DNA of 64,000 bases from Xestospongia bergquistia (lineage: Eukaryota > Porifera > Demospongiae > Haplosclerida > Petrosiidae). The DNA is taken from assembly GCA_963965975.1 (NCBI GenBank), contig OZ014415.1, positions 3,105,001 to 3,169,000 on the forward strand, read 5' to 3'. This document shows, one piece after another, positions 1,467 to 63,100 of the stretch. Position numbers and translations under genes: made by a program. The first letter of the stretch is position 1, and every line of letters starts with the position of its first letter. Below the pieces are notes generated by a model that saw only the letters and a program-made list of their open reading frames with translations, did no database searches and was not told the DNA's origin.

Positions 1467-1474
1467 TATATAAA
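1467..1474 (+). promoter_or_regulatory. TATA box of tectonin gene 1
   Basis: TATATAAA inside the context 'agtctctatataaaggcag', repeated with the same spacing before all tectonin copies. It lies 68 bp before the chosen ATG, so initiation near 1497 would give a short 5' UTR containing the conserved 'agcttgacaata'. Confidence 0.75.
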
Positions 1475-1542
1475 GGCAGTTGTACCCCAGCTTGACAATA
1501 TTAACAACAGAGAAATCAGTTCATACAAATCTAAGAAATAAG

Positions 1543-2277
1543 ATGTTCAATATAGCAGTAGTTCTATTGCTTTTTTTTATTTCTTCAATTTCATGTCATC
1601 AATGGACTGAAATCCCTGGCAGTTTAAAAGATATTACAGGATCTCCTAATTATCTCTGGGGTGTGAACTCTGATTATGCTATATACCGATGTGCACAGCC
1701 TTGTACTGGAAGTTGGGTTAATGTTCCTGGACTGTTGAGACAAGTAGATGCTAATGACTACGAAGTTTGGGGAATAAACCATTATAATGACATATACAAA
1801 CGTTCTGTTGACGGGAGTGGTAATTGGATTAAACTTACTGGAAAGTTTTATCATGTATCTGCCTCTGGTAATGGTTATATTTGGAGTGTAAGTACTGATA
1901 GTTGTCCATATAGGTGTAATAAACCATGTAGTGGTTCGTGGTCAAAAATAGGCAACAAATGTGCATTTAAACAAATAGATGGAGGACAAAATTACGTATA
2001 TGCAGTTAATAATACTAACCATGTATTTTCTCGTCCAGTTGATGGTAGTGGATCATGGCGCTATATTCCTGGTAAAATGCAACATGTCACTGTAGGATCT
2101 CATGAAATATTTGGAGTAGATGCACAAAATGAGGTCCATCGCTGCAAGAAACCATGTATTGGTGAGTGGGAGAAGATATCATTTGATGATGGTGATATGA
2201 AGCGATGTGATGCTACAATTAATGGTATCTTTGGTGTTACTACTGGAGGAACTATATACTATCATAAACTACCATGA
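1543..2277 (+). CDS. Secreted tectonin-propeller lectin, copy 1
   Basis: Single-exon gene of 244 residues. Residues 1-18 form a signal peptide (hydrophobic VVLLLFFISSIS), so the product is secreted. The mature part is six tandem tectonin blades of about 37 residues, each opening with W-x(2)-hydrophobic-x-G and containing a WGV/YAV/FGV core. Blades 1, 3 and 5 end in a C-x(2)-PC-x-G module; blades 2 and 4 end in VDGSGS. This is the architecture of tachylectin-1 and fish-egg lectins, secreted beta-propellers that bind bacterial surface glycans and LPS; ligand here is inferred. The ATG at 1543 was chosen over the upstream TTG frame because it aligns with the starts of the two paralogues. AATAAA at 2492-2497 is a likely poly(A) signal. 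Confidence 0.88.
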   Translation: MFNIAVVLLLFFISSISCHQWTEIPGSLKDITGSPNYLWGVNSDYAIYRCAQPCTGSWVNVPGLLRQVDANDYEVWGINHYNDIYKRSVDGSGNWIKLTGKFYHVSASGNGYIWSVSTDSCPYRCNKPCSGSWSKIGNKCAFKQIDGGQNYVYAVNNTNHVFSRPVDGSGSWRYIPGKMQHVTVGSHEIFGVDAQNEVHRCKKPCIGEWEKISFDDGDMKRCDATINGIFGVTTGGTIYYHKLP

Positions 2278-14752: not shown

Positions 14753-14820
14753 GGCAGTTTTATTCCCAGCTTGACAATATTGAGAACAGAAAAATCAGTT
14801 CATGAAATCTAAGGAATAAG

Positions 14821-15555
14821 ATGATCAAGATTGCAGTAATTCTATTGCTTGCCTTTATTTCTTCAATTTTAGGTCATCAATGGACTGAGATTAATGGATC
14901 TTTAAAGGATGTTACAGGATCTCCTAATTATCTCTGGGGTGTGAGCTCTATTGAAGCGATATATCGATGTGCACAGCCGTGTACTGGAATTTGGGTCCAT
15001 GTTCCAGGACATCTCAAGCAAGTTGATGCCAATGATTATGAAATTTGGGGATCGAACAATCTTAACGATATATACAGACGTTCTGTTGATGGGAGTGGTA
15101 GTTGGGCTCATATTCCTGGAAAGTCTTATCATGTATCTGCCTCTGGTAATGGTTATATTTGGAGTGTAGGTACTGATAGTTGTCCATATAGGTGTAAAAA
15201 GCCATGTAGTGGTGTGTGGTCTAAAGTAGGCATTACATGTTCATTTAAACAAATAGATGGAGGACAAGATTATGTATATGCAGTTAATCGTACTAATTAT
15301 GTATTTTCTCGTCCAGTTGATGGTAGTGGATCATGGCGCTATATTCCTGGTAAAATGCAACATGTCACTGTAGGATCCTATGAAATATTTGGAGTAGATG
15401 CACAAAATGAGGTCCATCGCTGCAAGAAACCATGTATTGGTGAATGGGAGAAGATAACATTTGATGATGGTGATATGAAGCGATGTGATGCTACAAATAA
15501 TGGTATCTTTGGTGTTACTACTGGAGGAACTATATACTATCATAAACTACCATGA
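14821..15555 (+). CDS. Secreted tectonin-propeller lectin, copy 2
   Basis: Single exon, 244 residues, same layout as copy 1: signal peptide 1-18 (VILLLAFISSILG), then six tectonin blades with alternating C-x(2)-PC-x-G and VDGSGS ends. The last two blades are almost identical to those of copies 1 and 3. Blades 1-3 differ at many exposed positions (for example SSIEAIYRC, GSNNLNDIYRR, GKSYHV), which would alter the ligand-facing loops. Likely role: binding of microbial surface glycans outside the cell, by family inference. ATG at 14821 is the only in-frame Met giving the signal peptide. AATAAA at 15773-15778 is a likely poly(A) signal. Confidence 0.9.
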   Translation: MIKIAVILLLAFISSILGHQWTEINGSLKDVTGSPNYLWGVSSIEAIYRCAQPCTGIWVHVPGHLKQVDANDYEIWGSNNLNDIYRRSVDGSGSWAHIPGKSYHVSASGNGYIWSVGTDSCPYRCKKPCSGVWSKVGITCSFKQIDGGQDYVYAVNRTNYVFSRPVDGSGSWRYIPGKMQHVTVGSYEIFGVDAQNEVHRCKKPCIGEWEKITFDDGDMKRCDATNNGIFGVTTGGTIYYHKLP

Positions 15556-20150: not shown

Positions 20151-20885
20151 TTATGGTAGTTTACGATAGTATATGGTTCCTCCAGTACTAACACCAAAGA
20201 TACCATTATTTGTAGCATCACATCGTTTCATATCACCATCATCAAATGTTATCTTCTCCCACTCACCAATACATGGTTTCTTACAGCGATGGACCTCATT
20301 TTGTGCATCTACTCCAAATATTTCATAGGATCCTGCAGTGACATGTTGCATTTTACCAGGAATATAGCGCCATGATCCACTACCATCAACTGGACGAGAA
20401 AATACATGGTTAGTATTATTAACTGCATATACATAATTTTGTCCTCCATCTATTTGTTTGATTGCACATTTGTTGCCAATTTTTGACCACGAACCACTAC
20501 ATGGTTTATTACACCTATATGGACAATTATCAGTACCTACAGCCCAAATATAACCATTACCAGAGGCAGATACATGATAAAAATGTCCAGAAACTTTAAT
20601 CCAATTACCACTCCCGTCAACAGAACGTTTGAATATCTCGTTAATACTGCTTATTCCCCAAACTTCATAGTCATTAGCATCTATTTCTTTCAAGCCTCCA
20701 GGAACATTAACCCAAATTCCAGTACATGGCTGTGCACATCGATATATAGCATCATTAGAGTTCACACCCCAGAGATAATTAGGAGATCCTGTAATATCTT
20801 TTAAAGATCCATTGATCTCAGTCCATTGATGACCTAAAATTGAAGAAATAAAGGCAAGCAATAGAATTACTGCAATCTTGATCAT
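20151..20885 (-). CDS. Secreted tectonin-propeller lectin, copy 3
   Basis: Single exon on the minus strand, 244 residues. Signal peptide 1-18 is identical to copy 2, followed by six tectonin blades with alternating C-x(2)-PC-x-G and VDGSGS ends. It is a mosaic: the signal peptide and first blade follow copy 2 (AFISSILGHQWTEINGS), while the region NWIKVSG to NYVYAVNNTNHVFSRP follows copy 1. This suggests gene conversion among copies. Private differences include GGLKEIDAND, ISSINEIFKR and YYRKLP at the end. Secreted glycan-binding role inferred as for copies 1 and 2. The 3' flank carries no clear AATAAA before the rearrangement at 19970, so its poly(A) site may differ. Confidence 0.9.
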   Translation of the reverse strand: MIKIAVILLLAFISSILGHQWTEINGSLKDITGSPNYLWGVNSNDAIYRCAQPCTGIWVNVPGGLKEIDANDYEVWGISSINEIFKRSVDGSGNWIKVSGHFYHVSASGNGYIWAVGTDNCPYRCNKPCSGSWSKIGNKCAIKQIDGGQNYVYAVNNTNHVFSRPVDGSGSWRYIPGKMQHVTAGSYEIFGVDAQNEVHRCKKPCIGEWEKITFDDGDMKRCDATNNGIFGVSTGGTIYYRKLP

Positions 20886-20935
20886 CTTATTCTTTAGATT
20901 TCATGAACCGATTTTTCTGTTCTCAATATTGTCAA

Positions 20936-26771: not shown

Positions 26772-32486
<5,715 letters not shown>

Positions 32487-34019
32487 TTTTCTTTGTATAT
32501 CGAGCCAGACCCTCCTTTTTGCTGATGCCAAAGTATAGAATGCCAAGCTGGGAGGGCGTGGCAGTCTGGGGCGTGAGAACGTTATTCATTATTCATTCAT
32601 ACCTACAGTTATACCAACCTGAACAGAGTGTAACGAAGCTCTTTGATGCTTGTTATCTAAATAAGATTTAGTCTTGCGTAACCAGTATGCAATGAAATGC
32701 GTGGTAAGTTTATAAAAGTCTTGCTTAGCCATACGGGAATGGAGACGAAAGTCGGTAGGCGCGTTAAGAGGGAGGAGGGAAAACACCGACTTTAACAAAG
32801 CTGACTCGACATGTGGTGCCATCATTATCAATGAAGTAGGAAATCTATCTATAACTCATTGATTGTACCCTATTAAGGGTAGGACCATTTATATCATGCT
32901 GGTGTATGAGAATGGAAGCAAAAAATTCCTATTTCAAAAGGATAGCTCAGATTGGTAATCTCAAGAACCTACCTTTTTCAATTGCAAACCATCACCAAAA
33001 ATTAATGTGTGGTTATCTTCAAGGCTGGTTTTAGTTTTTGGGAACTGCAATGTGGTCCATGTAAGTTTACATATATTAATTAATTTCATACTTATGATTC
33101 ATTTATTATTACTTTCATATTTTATGTAATAATATTTTTCACTTGTGTTTTCAGGTAAGACTAATACATTAAACAAAGATGTCCTTGTTACTGAGATATT
33201 TGACATGCTACCACAGGAGAATTTGATAGCAACAGTTTCTACATAAGTAATAATAATTAATGAGAGATATCATTTAGTTTGTTGGACTTAATTGGGTTAA
33301 AATTTATGGTCAGGTGTATAATCATATCTACATAATGATAATTGGCAAGATCATTTACAGCAATTTGTTAAAGTCATCGATATTTTAGTCATTTCTGATT
33401 TTATTTTACTTTCTGTTGAAGTATATATTACAGTAGGTGTGAATGATCATATATTAGGATATTTGGATTAATGAGACTCATCATTTTTCTGTAGTATGTC
33501 TATCAAATTCTTTTCTTTTGAAGTTTATTGTGCACATGTATTCAAGGATTATTTGTATTAATGTATGTGTTCTTTTGTTGAAAATACATCAACTTGAGTA
33601 ATAAGTTATATAATAACAAAATGATGAATCTACAATACTCATCCTTTAGAACAGTTTTAGTAGTGTCGACAGAACTGGTACATGGTAAATTGACAAATGT
33701 ATTGTAGCAACTATAAGGTGTTGTAGTTGTAATAGCAAAACAACGTTTTTTCAACAAAAATAATTATAATTTACTGTAACAACAACACATTAACAATTTT
33801 TGTTAAAATGACAAACCAATTTTCACTGTGTACTTTAAATAAACATAGACATTTTAGTTTGTTTGTTTAAAAAATACTAGTCTATTTAATACTGATCTAT
33901 TTTGAATATTAGTGACTTTTGCTGAACATTTCTTTGGTCCTCATAAAGAACTACGGAAGCAACAAGATCTAGAAAGTAAATTTTGACTCAGACACAGCAC
34001 CTCAAGTACTGCTGTCATT
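32487..34019. other. Divergent intergenic region
   Basis: Lies between the minus-strand receptor kinase and the plus-strand beta-helix gene. 32500-32830 is less AT-rich than its surroundings and holds one small frame (listed separately). 32850-34019 shows no TATA box or element that I can support; the small minus frame at 33542-33757 has no recognisable similarity. Confidence 0.4.
32589..32831 (-). CDS. Possible small unknown ORF or first exon
   Basis: Minus-strand frame of up to 80 residues, beginning near MMAPHVESALLKSV and containing FYKLTTHFIAYWLRKTKSYL. It stands out by higher GC and coding-like codon use. Potential donors (CAG-gttggt at about 32618) lie near its end, but no matching downstream exon was found before the receptor kinase starts at 32486. 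It is not recognised as any family; it could be a conserved first exon, a short protein or chance. Confidence 0.25.
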   Translation of the reverse strand: MIMMAPHVESALLKSVFSLLPLNAPTDFRLHSRMAKQDFYKLTTHFIAYWLRKTKSYLDNKHQRASLHSVQVGITVGMNE

Positions 34020-37000
34020 ATGAGCTGGTGTTATATCTATTATATAACATCAGTTATACTGTATATCTACAGTGGATATGTTACTGCTTCTGAGTATTAT
34101 GTCTCTGCAGCTCCTAATGGAGAACCTTGTCCTTCTACGTACCTACCTTGTCATAACATCTCCTACTATAATTCTGGTGTGTTCTACTTCACTGATGATA
34201 CGGTCTTTTACTTCCTAGAGGGAACTCATATTCTACAAGGTCCATTACGTATCAGTGATGTAAGTAATATAACTCTACAGGGACTGGGTCATGTAGAACA
34301 AGTTTTTTATGAAACGGTTATGCAATCTGCCTCATTAATAAAGTGTATTGATAACAACAGAGCTGGTATACAATTTACTAATAGCACAGATGTCGTAATG
34401 AAATCATTAACAATAGCAAACTGTGGTTTTCATACTTTTATCAGTCACCAAGGATATGTTCACAGTGCCAATGTTAGCTTATTTGTTGCTGATGTTAATA
34501 ATTTCACATTGGAATGGGTATCAGTCCAGAATGGTTCAGTTTTTGGACTCTGTCTAGTGAATACTTTTGATGTGTTAATTGTTAATTCCAATTTTGCCAA
34601 TAATAAAGGTCCTAAGGATTTAGGAGGCAATGCATTGATTGTCTATGATGACCATCATAAAGGAGTGTTCACAGTTAATATAGTGAAATCTAATTTTACA
34701 TTTGGTTTATTAACTAGCATGGGTTTGTGGTATGGTAACAATATTAAAGCTAAGGTAGTCTTTGAAAATTGTACTTTCTCACATAATATTGTCAAGGTTG
34801 GAGGTGGAGTGTACATTGTTTCATATGGGACTGGTAGTATTGAGTTTCGTAATTGTACTTTATACAACAATACTGCTTCAGTGTATGGAGGAGGAGTGTA
34901 CTTTAGATCACGTGGGAATGTTAGCATTGAGTTTCAAGATTGCACTATCTATGCTCAACATGATGGAGGAGGAGTGTATATTGATTCACATGGAAATAGT
35001 CGTATTGAGTTCAAAAATTGCACTATATACAAAAATGCTGCTCAACAATATGGAGGAGGAGTGTACATTCATTCAAATGGGAATAGTAGTATTGAGTTCT
35101 GTAACTGCACTATATACAACAATAGTGTTTGGTATATTGGAAGAGGAGGAGGAGTGTACATTCGTTCAAATGGAGAAAGTGGTAGTATCGAGTTTCATAA
35201 CTGCTCTATATTCAACAATATTGCTCACTATGACGGAGGAGGAGGGGGTGTGGCTATTAATTTATTAGGAGGTGGTAGTATTGTGTTTAGTAACTGTATT
35301 ATATACAACAATATTGCTCAGGATGGAGGAGGAGTGTACATTGACTTGTATGAAGGAGGTGGTAATATTAAATTTGGTCACTGCATTATATACAACAATG
35401 CTGCATATCTTGGATCAGGGCTGTTTCTCCGTGCTCTTCTTGTTACTTCAACAGGTACCTTTTATTTTCAAAATGTTTTATTCCAATTTAATAAAGCAAG
35501 CAATAAACTGGTTGTATATCGAAATGTATATCAATCTGCTGTTGTATTATTCAACATTGCTAATGTTATATTTGACCAAATTGATGTTAGTAATCATAAT
35601 ACAACTGGTTTAGTAGGTTTCAATAGTCTACTGACATTTCATGGATATAACACATTTGTAAATAATTCTGGCATTGATGGTGGAGGTATTTCTTTATATG
35701 AGTCTTCCCAATTATTGCTAAAAGGACGTGCAAACATATCATTTGTCAATAATCATGCCAGTGACTCAGGTGGTGGAATTTTTGTATCACAAGTTCTTGA
35801 TGTAGAGAAGAGTATTGATTGTTCCTTTGAAGTTATTCCATACTATAATTCTAGTGCTGTGTTATATTTTGTCAACAATACAGCTGACATATCAGGTGAT
35901 GTCCTATATGGTGGTAATGTTGATAATTGTTCTAATGAGGAAGACTTATTTAAAAACCTTTTCCAATACCCTCAACAAACAGGGCTATCAGTAGTGTCAT
36001 CAGATCCTATCCAAGTGTGTTTTTGTGAATCAGACAAACCAAATTGTTCCATTACAAACATCAACATAACTGTAATACCTGGAATTGATGTTAATATATC
36101 ACTAGCTACTGTTGGTTTAAATGATGGCTTAACACAGGGTGTGATAAAATTGACATCGTCAGATAATTCATCTACTGTGCAAACTAGACTAAATGCAAAT
36201 TGTACCAATGTACACTTGAAAACAAACCTTTTGTTGGACAAAGCACATATATATGCTAGACTTGAAAGTGAGCCTTCATTAGCTAAGATCATTGAAGTTA
36301 CAATTAAGTCCTGTCCAATCGGATTTATGTTGGGAAAGGATGCATGTATTTGTGGGCCTGAATTAAATTTATCTTCAATAACTTGTGATATTAACACTAA
36401 AAATATAATTAGAGATGGTAATTTGTGGATTGGTTATAAAAATGACTCAGACTGTCTTATTGTCTATCAACATTGTCCCTTTGATTACTGCAATGATCAA
36501 ACAATTCAATTTAAAGTCACTTCTCCTGATCCTCAATGTCTTCACAAAAGGTCTGGCATACTCTGTGGACAATGTACTAAAGGGTTCAGTCTCATGTTAG
36601 GTTCCAATCAATGTGGACAATGTACTAATGACCACATAGCTCTTATTATCCCATTTGCTGTGGCTGGTATAGCACTGGTAGCTTTGGTCATTGTTTTAAA
36701 TCTAACTGTGTCTGTAGGTACTATCAATGGACTTATTTTCTATGCTAATGTTGTCAAAATATATGAACACATCTTCTTTCCTGGTGGTCCTGTTCCATTT
36801 CTTAGTCAGTTCATTTCGTGGATCAATTTAGATCTGGGTATTAAGACTTGCTTCTATCATGGCATGGGTTCCTGCAGTAAGGCATGGCTACAGTTTATCT
36901 TTCCAGCCTATGTTTGGTTTATTCTAATTCTTATCATAATATTGTTACGATATTCCAGCAAAGTGGTTCAACTTGTAGGAAGACAAGCAATTCCAGTATT

Positions 37001-37856
37001 AGCCACTATGATCCTTCTCTCTTATACTAAACTGATACGCACTGTTTTTCATATCATCCATTACACCAATATTCAATGCAATAATGACATATCACTAAGG
37101 TGGTATATTGATGCTAATATCCAGTATGTTGGAGGTTGTCATATACCATTGTTCATACTCTCATTGGCTGTATTTACATTACTTATTGTTCCATACACCT
37201 TCTATCTTCTTACTATACCATTATTTGAAGGACCTCTATGTAAATACATGAGCTGCTGTCAAAAGTTGTCAATATATATGAAGCCTTTCTTTGATGCATA
37301 TGGAGGTCCGTATAAGGACAAGTGTCGTTTTTGGACTGGATTTTTACTTCTAGTTCGTGTTGTCTTAGCACTGGTTGTGTCTGAAGATACTGAGGATACA
37401 ACAAGCTTGGATGTGTTAACATCTCTTTTAATCATTATTATGTTCATGTATTTTCCTTTGAGAGGAATGTATCGACATTTTCCTTTGGTTTGTCTTGAGG
37501 TGATTTTTATTCTTAATCTTATGTTTATGACTCACATAAACCTACAAACATCTGAAAAATCCAAACGACAAGTATCAAGTATTGTTTCAGTTTCAGTAGC
37601 ATTTGTTATATTCTGTGGTATTATACTATATCAAGTCTGGAATCGTCTATTAAAGTCTCATTCACAAAAAACAATTTCAAAAGTCAAAGAAATTCTCAAG
37701 AAGCCTCCACCACCCTCTTGTTCTAATAATATTAAATTTACTTCAACCATCTATAATTCAATTCGTGCAGGACCCCTTAGTGTTGAAAGTACAACTCCTT
37801 CAATGTCAGTTGTGTTAATAGATACAAGGAGAGAACCACTATTGTGTGAGGACTAA
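34020..37856 (+). CDS. Beta-helix ectodomain protein with about eight TM helices
   Basis: Intronless, 1278 residues. Residues 1-23 are a signal peptide. From about 30 to 690 there is a right-handed parallel beta-helix: repeated GGGVYI-x-S-x-GN-x-SIEF-x-NCTIYNN units of about 30 residues, many with N-glycosylation sites. A Cys-rich region follows (about 690-870), including CPIGF, CDINT and a small EGF-like knot GILCGQCTKGFSL-x-CGQC. Hydrophobic helices then start near 872 (ALIIPFAVAGIALVAL), 955, 985, 1040, 1110, 1135, 1160 and 1188, followed by a short cytoplasmic tail. This belongs to a large, uncharacterised family in sponges and some protists. A surface receptor or adhesion role is inferred only. 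The ATG at 34020 gives the signal peptide directly. Confidence 0.85.
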   Translation: MSWCYIYYITSVILYIYSGYVTASEYYVSAAPNGEPCPSTYLPCHNISYYNSGVFYFTDDTVFYFLEGTHILQGPLRISDVSNITLQGLGHVEQVFYETVMQSASLIKCIDNNRAGIQFTNSTDVVMKSLTIANCGFHTFISHQGYVHSANVSLFVADVNNFTLEWVSVQNGSVFGLCLVNTFDVLIVNSNFANNKGPKDLGGNALIVYDDHHKGVFTVNIVKSNFTFGLLTSMGLWYGNNIKAKVVFENCTFSHNIVKVGGGVYIVSYGTGSIEFRNCTLYNNTASVYGGGVYFRSRGNVSIEFQDCTIYAQHDGGGVYIDSHGNSRIEFKNCTIYKNAAQQYGGGVYIHSNGNSSIEFCNCTIYNNSVWYIGRGGGVYIRSNGESGSIEFHNCSIFNNIAHYDGGGGGVAINLLGGGSIVFSNCIIYNNIAQDGGGVYIDLYEGGGNIKFGHCIIYNNAAYLGSGLFLRALLVTSTGTFYFQNVLFQFNKASNKLVVYRNVYQSAVVLFNIANVIFDQIDVSNHNTTGLVGFNSLLTFHGYNTFVNNSGIDGGGISLYESSQLLLKGRANISFVNNHASDSGGGIFVSQVLDVEKSIDCSFEVIPYYNSSAVLYFVNNTADISGDVLYGGNVDNCSNEEDLFKNLFQYPQQTGLSVVSSDPIQVCFCESDKPNCSITNINITVIPGIDVNISLATVGLNDGLTQGVIKLTSSDNSSTVQTRLNANCTNVHLKTNLLLDKAHIYARLESEPSLAKIIEVTIKSCPIGFMLGKDACICGPELNLSSITCDINTKNIIRDGNLWIGYKNDSDCLIVYQHCPFDYCNDQTIQFKVTSPDPQCLHKRSGILCGQCTKGFSLMLGSNQCGQCTNDHIALIIPFAVAGIALVALVIVLNLTVSVGTINGLIFYANVVKIYEHIFFPGGPVPFLSQFISWINLDLGIKTCFYHGMGSCSKAWLQFIFPAYVWFILILIIILLRYSSKVVQLVGRQAIPVLATMILLSYTKLIRTVFHIIHYTNIQCNNDISLRWYIDANIQYVGGCHIPLFILSLAVFTLLIVPYTFYLLTIPLFEGPLCKYMSCCQKLSIYMKPFFDAYGGPYKDKCRFWTGFLLLVRVVLALVVSEDTEDTTSLDVLTSLLIIIMFMYFPLRGMYRHFPLVCLEVIFILNLMFMTHINLQTSEKSKRQVSSIVSVSVAFVIFCGIILYQVWNRLLKSHSQKTISKVKEILKKPPPPSCSNNIKFTSTIYNSIRAGPLSVESTTPSMSVVLIDTRREPLLCED

Positions 37857-52650: not shown

Positions 52651-55600
52651 ATGGCTGATCTATCAGGCGTAGTTTCATTATTAATGAAAGAAGGAGAGCA
52701 ATCACTTCTCCAGGGCAATCTAGACAAAGCAAATTGGTCTTTCAACACAGTAATTTTCTTAGATCCCAAACAAACTCCACATTTATGGCAACGAGGGTTA
52801 AGTCTGTACTATTCGAGTCATTACAAAGAAGGAATGTTGCAGTTTCAACAGAATATGGATGTTAATGGCAGTGATATTGAGGAAGTCTTGTGGCACTTCA
52901 TCTGTAAGGCAAAAATTTTAGGTTACAACAAGGCATGTGAAGATGGATTTCTCTCGTTACATCAGTCTGAAACCCCACCTCCATTACCAATGTCAGAAGT
53001 ATTGGCTCTTTTTCAAGGAAATGGAACTGTTGATGATGTTATAGCTGCTGCAAGTAGTTCAAGTGCAGGAGAAATAGTTCATAGTTATAACAATACTGAT
53101 GCATTGGGATATGCTCACTTTTATATTGGTCTTTATTATGAACTACAAGGATCTATAGAGCTTGCTGGTAGACATTTGAAGCAAGCTGCTGAAATTAGAA
53201 ACACAGATTACATGGGTCAACTTATGGTGATGCACTTTGAGCTTTTTCAGAGAACTATTCTCCGTAATTCTCTTGTTCCTCTTATAACTATCAGTTCTGA
53301 TGGTACTAAATTAAGCAACACTCACTCAGCTATTATTTTGGGTGGTTGGCAACTGTGTCATGGGCACAATACAAGTAACAATGAGAATTTAAGTAAGTGA
53401 TGACAAGGAGTCGAACAATATTTATTGGTATGTTTTATAGTTAATTTTGTCTACTAATAATTATTAAGAATATAAACAAACTTCTTGTTAAAGATTTAAG
53501 CTATGCCTTATGTAAATGAATAAACATCTAGTCTTTGCTGTTGGTTTCACATATATTTAAAAATGGTCTGTATGTATGATAAGACTTTGAAAACTTGTTA
53601 TAACAAGCCATATTGTGTCTGCTTTAAATGACCTGTTTGTGATATTGAGCTAATGCAGATGTCACAGTTCACCCATACCTTGTACTAACCCTTGTTTTTG
53701 ATGCCATTTTGTGTGACAATAATGAGTACATAGAAGGGTAATAGTCACATGGTAATGAAATTTAGTTCTTATGACCTACTACATTACGCTTCTTTTTGTG
53801 ATTATGATGGAACCCTACACCACAACAGTATGTATCATTTTACTATTCAAATGACAAGTGTTATCCATTGTATGTGATACCTTTAATGTTTTTTGTTCAT
53901 CGATTATGAGAACCATTAATATTAAAGGTATTTTAAAGCTAACACTATAATTATATACTAATTTGGAACACATGCAATATTAATAGTGTGCCCTTTTTCT
54001 TTTTTTTAGCCCATTCAGAAATGATATCAAAACTTTTAGAAGCTATTGACAATGGTATTACTGGATTTGACTGTGGAGATATTTATACTGGAGTAGAAGA
54101 AATATATGGTCAACTTTTGAAGGCCTTTTTAATGAAAAGAGGGAGGAGGGAGGACATTGCTATTAACTCAAAATTAGTACCAGATTTGAATGTAATTAAA
54201 GAGGGTGAAGTTAATGAATCATATGTTCGTGGAGTCATCCTTCGATCATTGAATCGACTTAGAACATGTTACATTGATTTGATTCAGTTTCATTGGTGGG
54301 ATAACTCATGTCCAGGTTATATTGAGACAGCTCAGTTATTGGTATCGCTGAAGAATGAGGGGTTAGTAAAGCAAATTGGAGTAACTAACTTTGGAGTAAA
54401 AAATACTTTGGAATTACTACAAGCTGGGATTCCCATAGCTTCAACTCAGGTCAGTTTGGTGTATACTATATTGTTGGTATATTTTAATGACATCTAGTAT
54501 TGTTCTTAATTCTGCCTAATGACTAAGAAATAAAATTATATACATGTGTTCTTGTAAATATAAATGCCACAATAATTTGTTTGAAAATACCAATTTCACT
54601 AAATGGACTATTTGGAAGTTAAGAATAGAGGAATTGATAGAATTTATGAGATAACCAGAAGGTGTAAGTTTCAAAGCATAAATGTTTACACTCATCAATT
54701 GCTGTAGGCTGTAACACTACAAACAGAACTATTTGGATAGGTTGTAATACTGCCAATAGCACCATCAAGGACTGCCCTAGCATATAAGATATGGTTACTT
54801 CTATAACTAGACCCCACCCCAACATTAACACTGGTGACACGATTGGACATCACATTAATTAAGCCTACATCATATCAATAATTTCTTTATATACCGTAAA
54901 TGTCAAAATTTTCGCCGCTCAAACTTTCGTGTGTAAATTTTTCACGAACTCATAATTTTGTGTTTTGTGTCAATCGCAAAAATTTGATTAATTATTCGCG
55001 AGTCTAATTTTCTCGTTTTGTGTCAACCATGAAAATATAACTACCTTGAAAATGTTGACGTTTACAGTACTTCATTAATTCAGTAGTTGCTACATGTGTT
55101 GTGATAAAAGCAATTTTTTGTATGTTATAGATCCAGTACTCATTGTTAGATGATCGTCCCCTTCAGTCAGGGCTGGTATCATTATGTATTAAACACAATA
55201 TAACAATATTAGCTTATGGTGTATTAGCTGGTGGATTCCTTTCTGATCACTGGATAGGACAACCTAAACCAACTAAGGTAGACTATTAATGTAAAGGAGA
55301 TTAGTAGCTGTGCATAACTATGTAGCACATTTATACACAATTTATATTATATTTATGAACATATATGAGTCCTAGGAATGCATATTCAATTAGTGGTTGT
55401 CCTATTTTTAAGAGCTCTTAATGAGGCAAATTAAATTGTAACTTTATTAAACTGTATAGATGCAACTGATTACAGGTTATTCTGATTATACATGTATATA
55501 TGAATTAGGTATAGTCCTTGGAGTATATACTGGTTTTAAGAGCATCAATATCTAGTAGCTGTATCCTTGTTTGTATCATAGTAATATTATTTGACAACAT

Positions 55601-58600
55601 GACTAGAATTTTTGCCTTTTCAGAGTACATGCCCTTTTGTGCTTTACTCCTTTAATCAAGGTGTACTAGAAGTCTGTTATTATAACTATGTAGCTCTATT
55701 CTACTATGAGCAAATGTAATAGGATTATGTTTTATTTTGTTTTCAGTTTGACAATCGAAGTCTTATAAAGTATCGCCTTATTATTAATGAGTTTGGAGAT
55801 TGGGATTTATTTCAAGAGCTTCTTGCTGTCCTATGTTTAATTGGTGATCGTCATTCTCCATTAACTATAACACTGCCAACTACTGAAGTTGTCTGTGTTG
55901 ATCATGTGACTGTTTCTATGGTAGCTATTGCATATATATTGAATCAGCCAGGAGTAGGCGGAGTCGTCTTAGGATCTCTAAACACAAGGTGAAATAACTG
56001 TGATTGTAGTAGTACCTTTACCATGAGGAAAAGTAAGAGATTGTAGGTATGTAGACAAGTTTATAAACAACTTCACAGTTGTACCATTTTTCCTTGATTA
56101 ATAGCCCTGAAGTTTATTTTGCTCATAACACTCTTGAACAGGCATTTAAACCAAGTAGGCATTCATCTAAAGTAGACTTTTAGTGTCTTCAACTTCTCCA
56201 TAGTTACTGGAACATCAATAACTCTAGTGATAACTTAGTGGCAATGCTAACAAGTGTTTCGAGGCACCGCCTGACCATGCTGAGGCATTTATTCCAGTGA
56301 GACATTTATTTACACAATCATAATGCTCACTCTTGGCATTTATTCAAGGCAGGCATTAAGTGTTTAATCAAGGAAATATATTATATTATAATAGTACCTA
56401 TTCATTTTAGTGAGGTTGTAGATCAACATTAATAGTTCCAATATTTTACTTGTATAATAAAGTTAAAATATTTAGATGTAAGAAACTCTGCTTTATGTTC
56501 CTTTTGAATGTTTTTATGTGCAAGTTTCAAAGCTGACATGTAAGACACATCGAACTAATGATTCATTTTTTCTATCATGAGTACTATTGATTATGAGAAA
56601 GTTTCTGATGTGTCTTGAGCTTCTTTTAGCATTCTAACTTCAATTATTAAAGTTTGTGACATAAAATCTGTGAAGTTAAAAATGCCAACAAATGTTTAGA
56701 CGTAATAAAGTGACATCACAACCTTGTATCTAGATACAGTGCTGACATCAGCAGATATTGGGCTGTGGCATCATTATAAACACTTATATCCTAACCTGCA
56801 TTCTACTGTATTGACATCTCTTCAAGCATCTATGGTATCAAGCCACAAATACATTATGCCCAAATCTTGGACTTTATTACAGATACAACATGTGACGTCT
56901 TGGTCTTGTGGTCCTCAATATCACATGCTGTATCAGCAACAAGACCACTGTAGTTAGACAATAACATATACTTATTACTAATGCAACTTCAATTTCAGTA
57001 CTAATGAAACAATCCAGACAGTTATATTTTTGTTCTTACCCAAAACACATAAAAGATAATAAGAAAAGATAAAACAAGGAAATAGTATGAAATTTTGTGC
57101 AATTGATTAAAAGGCAGGATCTACTCTGGGAATTATGTAACTTGAATATAAATTGACTAAGCCACAATGAAGTGTAATGGCAATGCCATATCCCTATGTA
57201 ATAGCATGCAACAACTATACTGCTTTGCTGAAATGGCAATATGAAAATGGCTTCATAGAAGCCACAAAGTCAAGTGTGCAAAGTTTAATTAGCACAATAG
57301 TTAAAGATAGTTATAATGATAAAGCAGTATTAGTTGTTGTTTTTTTAATAATATCACAGTGAGAGGATCTTCTGTGTGTCTACTCTGTAGGTAATTTCAA
57401 ACCCCTTCTTATTCTGATCTTATTTCTTATTTAAGATGGCTTACTGCCATCTTACTTTTCAATATTTTTTTAAAGATTTTTTTTCATGTTCACATAAATT
57501 TTTTATGACACTATGTTTTTCAAGATTGATAAACACCATGTTTTATGTGACACATTATTATCTAAAATAATCATTATAAACTCTCAGTTTTGGAGTTAAT
57601 TATTATGGACAAAAGAAGACAAGAATATTATGCCATCAATGCATTGGTAGTGCTAATCAATAAATGTAATGAGAATAGTTAGCATTTGTGATCAGAATAC
57701 AATTCTGTGTTTGTTATACAATTAATTTGACAAATATTACTTCTTTTTGCAGCCATATTAAGGAGTCCATTCTTTCGTCTCACTTAAAGCTGACAGAACA
57801 GGATTTTAAGGATATTAATGAAGTTCTTAAGAAAAGGCGTGGTCCAAATGGTGAAGTTTATGAACTGGAAAGAAAGCAAGAAGGACCACATGGACAAATT
57901 ATGAAATATAATTTAAGTCAATTAAATGAACCATCTCATTTTGAAGAATTATGTATTCGGTAAGTACATACTATTATTTATTACGTTTGTTCACGTTTTT
58001 TAATTATCCTTTTCTATTGATTAGATTTCTGGAATTATATTTCTCAGCCAATCCAGTGGAAGCTACCTGTAAAGGTTACATGTTAACATCATTAAATCCT
58101 AAACAGTACAGCCTTACTTCTGAGTGTTATGTCAAATATGCAATGCAAGCTATGTCATATGACTTTGTTCTAAATTTAACCTCCAAAGATGAAATAGAAG
58201 CCTATTTGTGTAATCTCAGGTTATTTTTACTTGAAATTGAAGGAGTTAATAAAAGTAGATTATCACCTGATCAAAATGTTGATCTTGAGATTATTATAGC
58301 TCAAATAAATCTTGAGTGTATGAAATGGTTAGATGTAAAACTACACGAAAGAGACCCTGCAATATATTTGCCATTTGATGCTATCAATTATCTGCTACCC
58401 TCTTGGGGACCTCAGGAAGACAAACACGATCTCACACATAAGCAACCTGATAACCAAACATTTCTTAATCAATTATTTCACCCAGGTGTTGTGTCTCTTC
58501 CCATCGAACATCGCTTGTTAGCACTTCTCTCTCGCTTACGTGGAATACCTAAGTCCTTGAAAGATGGTCTTGAAAACCTGATTAATCCTGTTAAAATATT

Positions 58601-59987
58601 CACTGAAAGGGCCATTAAACTTTGTAATAGTTTTGAAGTGTTCTTAGAAAAAGATCTTTTAGTCTTAGTAGAGAAAATGGTTGTGTGCCTTGCACATCAA
58701 ACACAGCAAGCTTCCAGGTTAACTGAAGAAATTATTCTTGCTGCTAAAATTGCAGCTGTATCTGTGTCTATTTTTAAAATGTCACTAATAAACGATGTCT
58801 TACCTAATTCCACTAACACACCTCTTGCTGTTGGCAGACCAGTATATGACAAGCTTTTACATTATGGACATTTTATTTCTGATAGTTCAGCACTGTTAGA
58901 GCTAGGAGAAACTCATTTTGCTCAAGTAAAGAAACAGTTGGAAAAAATTGCTAATGAAATTGATCCAAACAAAACTTGGTTGGAAATTACAGAAGAATTA
59001 ATCCGTCCAGTACATCCAACAACTGATGAATTACTTACCGCCTACTTAAAAGAGATTTCAAGAGCAAAAGAACACATGATAAAGTATGACTTAGTACCTT
59101 CTTTACCCGAGGGAGAAAATATCCAAGGATTTTACACTCCAGACTTTTTAGTTCCTTTCTCTCCTTTTGGTGATTTTCTCAATCCTGCACCATTTGCATG
59201 CAAATCTTCTATTATCGATGACACTAGTCCATTTACAGGGTATCTTATGCTTCATTCAGTGGCTGCTAAATCTCTTGTACCTGCCAAAGAAGAAGCTCTC
59301 TTACGAGCTCATGATTTTACATGGATCAGTGTAATAGCTCCTCACGAGTGTTATCCTGGACATCATGTACAAGCATTGTTGGCACAGCAACATCCTCGAG
59401 TTCTGCGTAAAGTTTATGAGTCAGCTTTTTTCTATGAAGGATGGGGTCTTTATTGCGAGGAACTTGCTTATGAAACTGGTTTTTTTCATAAGGAAATAGA
59501 CATGATGAGTGGCCAAGAATCAGAAGATGGACAAAATAATGCCAAAAACAAAGTATATCTTTCAGGAGACAAACAGCCATCAACGAAAGTAATTCCTGCA
59601 TCTCTCTATTCTAGATTGTCTCGACTGACTCAATTAAGATTACAACTATGGAGAGCAGCACGTGTTATACTTGACATCAAGTTTCATAGAGGAGAGATGA
59701 CATTTGAAGAATGTGAAGCATTTCTTTGTCATGAAGTCATGTTTAGTCCACATGCCTCTCAGGGTGAAGTATTTATGTATGCTTCAAGGCCAACATATGC
59801 TACTTGTTATATAGCAGGCTATGTAGAGCTGATGAAGTTGAGAGATTCAGAAAGAAAGAGGTGTGAGTGTGAAGGTACAATGTTTAGTTTAAAAGAGTTT
59901 CACACAAAATTATTACAACTGGGTTGTTTGCCCTTTCCTTTAATAAAACAACTATTCAAAGTATCTAAAGACAGGATTTTACAATGA
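52651..59987 (+). CDS. TPR - aldo/keto reductase - DUF885 fusion protein
   Basis: Six exons join in phase to 1246 residues: 52651-53392, 54010-54449, 55131-55277, 55747-55988, 57753-57959, 58025-59987. Residues 1-215 are TPR-like helices (GNLDKANWSFNTVIFLDP, GYAHFYIGLYYELQG). An aldo/keto reductase follows, starting AIILGGWQL, with full tetrad: Asp268 and Tyr273 in FDCGDIY, Lys302 in NSK, His342 in QFHWW, then VTNFG and VVLGS. A linker (RRGPNGEVYELERKQEGPHG) leads to a DUF885 domain with HECYPGHH (1033-1040) and EGWGLYCEE (from 1064), probable metal and catalytic residues. A cytosolic multi-enzyme is inferred; substrates are unknown. Domains could also be annotated as two genes, but exon phases (2-2 at both late joins) support one transcript. 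Confidence 0.82.
54894..55067. mobile_element. 174-bp MITE flanked by TA, in an intron
   Basis: Begins CCGTAAATGTCAAAATTTTC and ends with the complement of CTGTAAACGTCAACATTTTC: 17 of 20 terminal bases inverted. Flanked by TA on both sides (54892-54893 and 55068-55069), as for mariner/Tc1-type targets. The inside holds further short 'cgcaaaaattt' inversions. No coding capacity. It lies in the third-exon-side intron of the fusion gene. Confidence 0.7.
55278..55746 (+). other. Intron of the fusion gene, nothing seen
   Basis: GT-AG intron with no element or frame recognised. Confidence 0.5.
55989..57752 (+). other. Long intron between reductase and DUF885 parts
   Basis: The longest intron of the gene (1.76 kb), bounded by AG-gtgaaa and ttttttgcag. 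Small frames at 56724-56957 and 57177-57362 show no family similarity and are not called. This is where a second gene start would have to lie if the DUF885 part were separate; no TATA box or signal is evident. Confidence 0.45.
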
Positions 59988-60728: not shown

Positions 60729-63100
60729 ATGCCAGCCTTAGTTGCCTGTGGAAGAAGATGGGAGTTTGGAAGTGACGACCTGGTATTTCCAGGACTTGCG
60801 TTGGTAGTAGTTCGATCAATTTGGTTATTTTTACAGGTGAGATGGACATAAGATTAACACTTTCTCCTTCCATACTTATTATATACGTGTACATTTTTCT
60901 TGGTCTATGGATGTACTTAGATACAGAGCTAAACATATAATGAGTTGATATCAACTATAGCCAATCTATATGCCATTCACCATGTTAAAGGAGTTTCATT
61001 TGACTTCAGGTTTAATGGCTATTTGTATGGTGTAAAGACCTTATCATATGTGTTAAAATTATTCTTACGTGCCAACCCCTTAGACCTAAAGATTAATGAT
61101 ATATAGAAAAACTGCTATTAAAGTAGCCATTATGTTAATAATTTGTCTTATATTAATAATTATACCAGTTTTCTAATGGCCTCTTATCTATATAGATTGT
61201 GGGTGTGGCTATCTACCATGATGTACTTATCTGTGAACATTCCCATGAATTTGCTACTGTTGCCTATATATCCATTATAATGACAATATCTATTATTATC
61301 CTTGAGATATTAATCGTCATAGCCAGTTCAAGAGGGACAATTCGTCACAGTCGACCTCGAAGATTTGTTGCTCCTCTTTTATATTGCCGTGTTATAGTGT
61401 TTGCTGTTGAGATAATAGCTTTAATAGTAAAGACAGCATTAGCTGCTCAGATAAATCAATCTGCTGACACGAATCAATGTCCAGACTTAGATACAGCTAT
61501 TGTTATTACCTGTGTTGTGGTGGCCGTCACGTGGTTAATCTTCTCTATTGTGTTATTGTCTGTTTTCGTTTATCTTGATCCTTGTCATTGTTACTCTATT
61601 AAAATGGATTTCAGTGCTCTTAATCGTCATGGTAACACAGACAATATTGATGAGGATATCAGTCATCAGTGGCAGTTGACTCAATTTGTATGGGAGAAAA
61701 GGTTTAGAAGTATTGGTTGCTGTATTGGTAGTGATGAGTCTCATCAAGTTGCATTCAAAGAGGTATCAGAAATAATAGCCCACCTCTTTTACGACAGTAA
61801 TTTAGTTGTCTCTGACATTGCTGCTGGTTTAATTTTATTACAAAAGAAACATTTTGAACATGAAATATCAACTATAACTTCACCTGATCCATTTCAATCA
61901 GCTCGATCAATCAGTGTTAATTTTCATGATCCAGAGGAAAAACAACAATTTTTTGATGCCTTTCACTTCTTAAAATTTGCTCTAGGCATATATTCATGGC
62001 CAATTCACATGTTCATGAATCCTCTTTGTGGTTGTTGTCATTTACTTTCACATACCTTTTGCGGGCAATCATCACATAGGAACATTGTAGGTGATAATTG
62101 TTGTCATTGTGGTTTTGCTGGTTTTCTGTCTACAACAGACATTAATGAAATGGACATTGTGTATTTACGTTTTGAGAATGATTTGTATCGAGTTCCTTTT
62201 GTAGTCTGCGTTGACCATGATGAGAAGGCTGTGGTAATAGCTATTAGGGGAACACTATCACTTCATGATGTCATCACTGACTTAACAGCATCTTCACATC
62301 CTGTTGAGTTGCCTGGCTGGCCAAGGTTTACAGTTCATAAGGGTATGTACCAAACTGCCTTGTGGATTAAAGGACAGCTTGACGAGGAAGAGGTATTAGA
62401 GGAAGCATTCAGAAGAGTTCCTCAATATAAGCTAATAATTGTTGGTCACTCTCTGGGATCAGGTTGTGCTTGTGTTTTAGGACTTTTACTTCGTGAACAA
62501 TACCCAGATGTACGTTGCTTTTGTTACTCACCTACTGGCTCTCTATTAAATGCAACTGCTGCAGCATATACACAATCCTTTGTGACCTCAGTCACATTAG
62601 GTCAAGATCTGGTCTGTCGTCTTAAAATACGGACAGCTCATCAGTTTAAACAGGAAGTTATAAATGTAATTAAATCTTGTCATAAACCTAAATATCGTAT
62701 CTTTTTAGAAGGAGCTTTAGAAACAATAGGAAAATGTTGTGGGCATCATATACTATTTAAAGAAGTAACTGACTCTAGATTAGATGACATTATCAATAGC
62801 GAAGATTTATCACCATTAATCTTGTCTGAATCTACATCCTTTGCCTTTGATTCTATTGAAGAAGAAGAAGAAAATCCAACTATACCTCGTCTTTTCCCAC
62901 CTGGACGTATCATTCATATTGTTGACACTCTTGAAGAAAGGCGTTGTTTCTTTGCACGTCGTCAGCTAGAAGCTAGATGGAGCTCTGCTAATAGCTTTGA
63001 AGAGATTGTGGTATCTCCAGATATGATTCGTGATCATTTTCCAGATGTCCTATTTCGTGCTATGAAAATGATATATGATCAAAAAAAGGAAGAACTATAA
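60729..63100 (+). CDS. sn1-specific diacylglycerol lipase, DAGL-beta-like
   Basis: Two exons (60729-60836, 61196-63100) give 670 residues, close to the length of vertebrate DAGL-beta. The first exon reads MPALVACGRRWEFGSDDLVF, the conserved DAGL start. Four membrane helices follow (about 20-42, 53-78, 90-117, 128-160), then a cytosolic alpha/beta-hydrolase with GHSLGSG (nucleophile Ser455), Asp507 in LGQDLVCR and His610 in PPGRIIHIV. Family role: hydrolysis of diacylglycerol to 2-arachidonoylglycerol-type monoacylglycerols at the plasma membrane. The ATG at 60729 was chosen because it supplies the family N-terminus missing from the long second exon. The Cys-rich segment CGCCHLLSHTFCG (about 310-325) resembles the Cys-rich insertion of DAGLs. 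Confidence 0.92.

Follow-up and report, generated by a model that had tools for sequence, protein, structure and literature searches.

The window analysed here is a stretch of 64,000 nucleotides from contig OZ014415.1 of the sponge Xestospongia bergquistia (positions 3,105,001 to 3,169,000 of the forward strand), and the gene under study occupies its positions 52651-59987 on the plus strand. Six exons, separated by GT-AG introns throughout, give a single frame of 1246 residues with its sole stop at the end. In protein order, this frame comprises an NlpI/TPR-like module (TPR, tetratricopeptide repeat; ~residues 1-200), an aldo/keto reductase (residues 228-549, with a conserved tail to residue 578), and a DUF885 domain (~residues 585-1235). 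All exons lie on the plus strand. Exon 1 (52651..53392) carries the ATG, the helical N-terminal module, and the first reductase segment, GGWQL (231-235). Exons 2 (54010..54449) and 3 (55131..55277) belong to the reductase, the former including D268, Y273, K302, and H342. Exon 4 (55747..55988) adds the NRSLIKYRLII block and an insertion of ~16 residues that three aligned bacterial relatives do not have. Exon 5 (57753..57959) encodes the reductase C-terminus with its tail HGQIMKYNL (570-578), a linker, and the first DUF885 residues, HFEELCIR. A 65-nucleotide intron (57960..58024) follows just past the reductase/DUF885 joint, and its retention would stop the reductase frame immediately. Exon 6 (58025..59987) encodes the DUF885 domain and the stop, with HECYPGHH at residues 1033-1040 and EGW at 1064-1066; the HE-x2-PGHH motif, a predicted metal site, is found at 59343..59366.

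For a random frame of 653 codons with the base composition found here, the probability of being open is ~3e-23, which excludes chance. The GC content is coding-like at the third codon position (0.252, as against 0.492 at the first) and is higher in the exons (0.33-0.38) than in the introns (0.23-0.31). The host genome (146 Mb, 21 contigs) possesses one DUF885 locus, and a search of it with residues 1-611 returned six matches, every one an exon of the fusion gene. Both joints between domains are intra-exonic: exon 1 runs from the TPR-like part into the reductase, and exon 5 from the reductase C-terminus into DUF885. The initial annotation had described one splice-consistent frame joining TPR-like helices, a reductase, and DUF885, and this observation is confirmed; the locus appears to be a genuine animal-type gene making one three-part protein, with a splicing pattern predicted from the genomic sequence. 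The protein is probably cytosolic, no obvious N-terminal signal being visible by inspection.

The same annotation flagged the 1764-nucleotide intron 55989-57752 as the place at which the fusion could fail. In fact, this intron lies inside the reductase, since exon 5 holds the reductase C-terminus with the HGQIMKYNL tail, and a transcript ending in it would give a truncated reductase and no clean two-domain product. The reductase/DUF885 joint therefore hinges on exon 5 together with the 65-nucleotide intron. The DUF885 homology starts seven residues past the reductase tail, as a haloarchaeal DUF885 protein aligns from residue 585. The aligned stretch extends 27 bases further upstream with the whole protein than with exon 6 alone; the homology hence crosses the 65-nucleotide intron.

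The N-terminal module is the least defined of the three. On the spliced protein, the Pfam profile TPR_2 scores 13.7 bits, and 20.6 bits on exon 1 alone, both below the cut-off of 27. The NCBIfam profile PRK11189 (NlpI) matches residues 18-179 (model positions 109-263 of 297) with an E-value of 7e-10, at 38.9 bits as against a cut-off of 250, and no curated cut-off of the TPR or NlpI profiles is thus reached by this part. Its matches among PDB structures are NlpI chains (E ~0.002) and, at E 2.5e-4, designed consensus TPR proteins. A single-sequence structure model of exon 1, made with no alignment, is all-helical, with a poor mean predicted local distance difference test score (pLDDT) of 40.7. 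The three-part fusion of the initial annotation stands as a fusion, and the TPR identity of its first part stands as weak: "TPR/NlpI-like" is a weak, profile-based assignment. The scaffold role proposed for this module is conjectural.

The reductase domain is identified by Pfam Aldo_ket_red (PF00248) at residues 228-549 of the spliced protein (E 1.8e-53, 182 bits, cut-off 24). D268, Y273, K302, and H342 fall at the tetrad positions in alignments to 1pz1 (YhdN/GSP69) and 1pyf (IolS), the nearest solved structures. The D, Y, K, H tetrad, with the roles of its residues, is what we take to define the catalytic site of aldo/keto reductases. All four residues, together with the DUF885 HE-x(2)-PGHH motif, are present as initially annotated, and the domain is proposed to reduce a carbonyl with a nicotinamide cofactor. 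Flagellar radial spoke protein 5 is likewise an aldo/keto reductase, but orthology to it is not favoured, as its scores are below those of YhdN and others and the profile match is partial only.

Relatives of this reductase were collected by a pattern scan of a genome collection, which yielded three loci, and in genome samples: 13 of 398 genomes of a phylum sample at E 1e-15 (the sample's centre among the 13), 20 of 385 of a class sample at E 1e-40 (three in common with the phylum-sample set), and 1 of 299 of an order sample at E 1e-30, namely the sample's centre itself. Three of the 13 phylum-sample genomes (G074, G126, and G174) were left out when the neighbourhoods were compared. The window reductase shares 41-42% identity along its length, the same blocks, and the tail with three bacterial relatives. 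The letters HGQIMKYNL are common to these three, two of which end within 10 residues of the tail; this identity partly reflects how they were selected, HGQIMKYN having figured among the six patterns searched for. No family name was found for the prokaryotic reductases with an HGxIMKYNL tail.

Thirty-two reductase loci were compared by tblastn. A TIGR04076 gene lies on the same strand within 130 bases of the reductase in 29 of them, at 1216 and 3385 bases in two others, and was not found in the remaining one. Within the open literature searched, TIGR04076 is named in one paper (PMC8667426). A Saccharibacteria locus displays the pairing as well, and so does a haloarchaeal one, with 3.4 kb between the two genes. 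In all three annotated loci, TIGR04076 and the reductase are accompanied by a second reductase, a substrate-binding protein, and an ABC transporter of the branched-chain-amino-acid type, and in two of them also by GntR. This second reductase (480-530 residues) is a fusion of an aldo/keto reductase with RidA (Ribonuc_L-PSP) in 8/8 cases scanned with Pfam (L030, L031, L032, L033, L037, L038, L040, and L121), labelled merely "aldo/keto reductase" in three annotated records; further second reductases, e.g., in L029, L105, and L108, were seen outside the Pfam scan. A literature search aimed at such fusions returned one review, which deals with another subject. In three reductase loci, the neighbouring flavin adenine dinucleotide (FAD) enzyme belongs to the DAO family (3/3 scanned). 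An amino-acid-type importer, a RidA fusion, and a DAO oxidase near the reductase favour an amine-imine-carbonyl chemistry. Tandem reductase pairs occur in L106 and L107 (genomes G938 and G852). The TPR part of the window finds no tblastn match in any of the 32 loci; in L040, a protein annotated as tetratricopeptide is encoded ~3 kb away on the opposite strand, with no detectable similarity to it.

Together, the HGxIMKYNL tail and the NRSLIKYRLI block mark a TIGR04076-linked reductase group, defined here, and the window reductase possesses both. A tree of 36 rows, in which 31 of the 32 loci (L109 being lost to a filter) and only four second reductases were kept, places it with the first, TIGR04076-linked reductases at 100/100 against the four second ones. 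Its nesting within that group is weakly supported: the group of three to which it belongs receives 94/86, and two values, 84/86 and 81/82, are drawn open. It also forms a long branch of unusual make-up. As it is the sole eukaryotic row, the tree gives neither the date nor the direction of any transfer.

The DUF885 profile (PF05960) matches residues 645-1235 of the spliced protein (E 3.9e-55, 188.9 bits, cut-off 32.4). H1033, E1034, P1037, G1038, H1039, and E1064-G-W are invariant in four aligned sequences, and both the HE..PGH and EGW..Y.E motifs are present. The available portion of PMC12572635 gives a DUF885 protein a predicted zinc site of two His and a Glu, with His in HExxH, and places the family in the Peptidase_MA clan. 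The window domain is predicted to be a metal-dependent peptidase-like enzyme or amide hydrolase. It is matched by 32 of the 42 DUF885 loci compared, the best being a haloarchaeal stand-alone protein with 26% identity, which aligns over the length of the domain and has no RR-type leader.

In viral contigs, exon 1 has no relative, the reductase gave 90 pattern matches of which none was confirmed, and DUF885 is represented by one fragment; phages, searched for DUF885 only, returned no match. On the plasmid side, the regions inspected among 923 records were four of the reductase and three of DUF885; no plasmid record covers 80% of the whole fusion protein, and none matches the TPR part.

In one bacterial locus, relatives of both enzymes stand side by side. 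On the minus strand of L034 (genome G150), DUF885 (4820-2997), an MFS transporter (3000-1717), TIGR04076 (1720-1370), and the reductase (1373-321), with a tail reading HGSIMKYNL, follow each other with 4-base overlaps, forming an apparent operon; a promoter and terminator scan of this locus returned 0 and 0. By inspection, the L034 DUF885 starts with an RR-type leader. This operon supports a shared pathway for the two enzymes, as a single case. A special kinship between the window and L034 reductases was not retained: the latter is the best BLAST match among the 32 loci (307 bits, the next 298) but does not group with the former in the tree.

From these elements, we tentatively propose, at something short of an even call, that two enzymes with intact key residues act in sequence, within one protein, on one small nitrogenous amide-linked compound, the TPR/NlpI-like module serving self-association or binding. 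The DUF885 domain would cut an amide bond, and the reductase would then reduce a carbonyl on the released part; alternatively, reduction would come first and amide cleavage second. The N-terminal module would provide self-association or binding. We infer metal binding, catalysis, the step order, the substrate, the TPR role, and likewise channelling.

Several observations weigh against this proposal, besides the gene model's single real weakness, the 65-nucleotide intron 57960-58024. The metal ligands are only a prediction, since the window motif is HExxPGH, as in 3u24, its second His being six places on, and differs from a literal HExxH. The single-sequence model of exon 6 has a mean pLDDT of 35.9, and the models are too poor for analysing domain packing. 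Neither family nor protein searches, run with no positive control, detected TIGR04076, the usual partner of such reductases, in the host genome. Beyond L034, DUF885 occurs by tblastn in none of the other 31 reductase loci (1/32). Among 32 reductase-bearing genomes, a set that differs from the list of 32 loci, four have DUF885 (0/3, 1/12, and 3/17), adjoining the reductase in one; set against 78 of the 398 Pseudomonadota genomes of the phylum sample (75 over the cut-off), this gives no genome-level association, for groups that differ in make-up. Furthermore, the L034 DUF885 belongs to a different subtype: only ~205 C-terminal residues can be aligned with the domain of the window. The initial suggestion of a common substrate, or of successive ones, for reductase and hydrolase is therefore backed by one operon, whereas the remaining loci, the genome counts, and the DUF885 subtype speak against it.

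These same counts feed the strongest alternative, a real fusion whose enzymes have unrelated substrates, joining serving only to set stoichiometry or cell location, or resulting from a neutral gene merger. The rarity of DUF885 near the reductase and its lack of enrichment in reductase-bearing genomes speak for it, as do nearest relatives that differ among those examined, mostly alphaproteobacterial named loci for the reductase and haloarchaeal for DUF885. However, one operon groups the two genes along with TIGR04076 and a transporter, and key residues are kept in both domains, which makes this alternative plausible while leaving it on the doubtful side.

The 65-nucleotide intron opens a second alternative, with two products: a TPR-reductase ending in this intron, and a separate DUF885 protein with a hydrophobic leader starting at ATG 57951. 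The exon 6 frame is indeed open back through the intron to this ATG, giving MYSVSTYYYLLRLFTFFNYPFLLI before the DUF885 domain, and intron retention stops the reductase frame directly past residue 593. Several AATAAA/ATTAAA words are present in the region, but the DNA is AT-rich and no expectation was computed for them. In contrast, the donor of the intron is consensus-like (TTCG|GTAAGT) and its acceptor is AG, the spliced frame carries the DUF885 homology ~9 residues into exon 5, and the remainder of exon 5 is reductase. Two products are thus improbable. A dead gene, a mis-assembly, or contamination, to which the prokaryotic relatives of the reductase and DUF885 might point, is already largely refuted: the gene has five introns, it lies on a long contig among neighbours of animal type (a frame of 11 Sushi repeats and a class 3 lipase), its joints fall within single exons, and its frames and catalytic residues are intact. 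Such an artefact is scarcely credible.

The proposal of sequential action on one compound may be carried further, on speculative and rather unlikely ground: the sponge protein would carry, on one chain, a hydrolysing and reducing pathway derived from bacteria, in which TIGR04076, the usual bacterial partner, would have been replaced by the joined DUF885 and TPR-like module, and would offer a first handle on DUF885 function in animals. The fusion and the operon together narrow the substrate guess to amide-linked carbonyl or amino compounds, which makes it testable. DUF885 occurs in 78 of the 398 Pseudomonadota genomes counted above, yet no functional study is evident by title in the open literature naming it, as far as the titles returned go. 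The protein would also be a further case of two prokaryote-related enzymes incorporated into a multidomain protein of an animal.

Elsewhere in the window, the gene is followed downstream by the class 3 lipase (61196-63100, plus strand), one long open frame with a hydrophobic N-terminus. The 11 Sushi repeats form a single open frame at 29710-31710 (minus strand). Three highly similar tectonin-type open frames are found at 1474-2277 (plus), 14806-15555 (plus), and 20151-20900 (minus), the first of which was run against Pfam. An open frame of 1289 residues at 33987-37856 (plus) displays right-handed beta-helix repeats, with hydrophobic stretches in its C-terminal half.

The fusion is a new combination of known domain families. 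The initial annotation did not recall such an arrangement as described, and open-literature searches likewise found no report of it; eukaryote protein databases may already catalogue it. The two papers naming DUF885 that also contain "aldo" deal with Mycoplasma proteome data and bacterial halotolerance, with no fusion apparent by title. PF00274 is presumably an aldolase family. A ciliate "aldo-keto reductase" fusion (PMC13344042), whose domain carries the label PF00274 in the part available, was hence not used as a precedent. A social amoeba DUF885 appears in a table of transferred genes in the accessible part of PMC3188802.

Compared with known systems, each part of the fusion has a counterpart. 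The prokaryotic HGxIMKYNL-tail reductases share with it the blocks, the tail, the identity level given above for the three compared, and the 100/100 grouping; those seen are stand-alone, whereas the window reductase is flanked by the TPR-like and DUF885 parts and bears the ~16-residue insertion. The bacterial reductase-RidA fusions also join a reductase to a second enzyme-type domain, but involve a different reductase group and a different partner. NlpI, a lipoprotein that scaffolds peptidoglycan hydrolases according to the portion of PMC7049810 available, resembles window residues 18-179 through a weak match; the window part is far under the curated cut-off and has no lipoprotein signal by inspection. 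The solved DUF885 structures 3u24, 3o0y, and 3iuk share the domain match and the HE..PGH and EGW..Y.E motifs, whereas the DUF885 domain of the window is C-terminal in a fusion and has no signal of its own. The view of the initial annotation that DUF885 proteins are mostly single-domain has at least one exception in print, a Talaromyces protein of phosphorylase type with DUF885 (PMC8478523, the single paper found to name PF05960). Like the sponge protein, it is a eukaryotic multidomain protein with DUF885 at the C-terminus; unlike it, its partner domain is nucleoside-phosphorylase-like, with no reductase.

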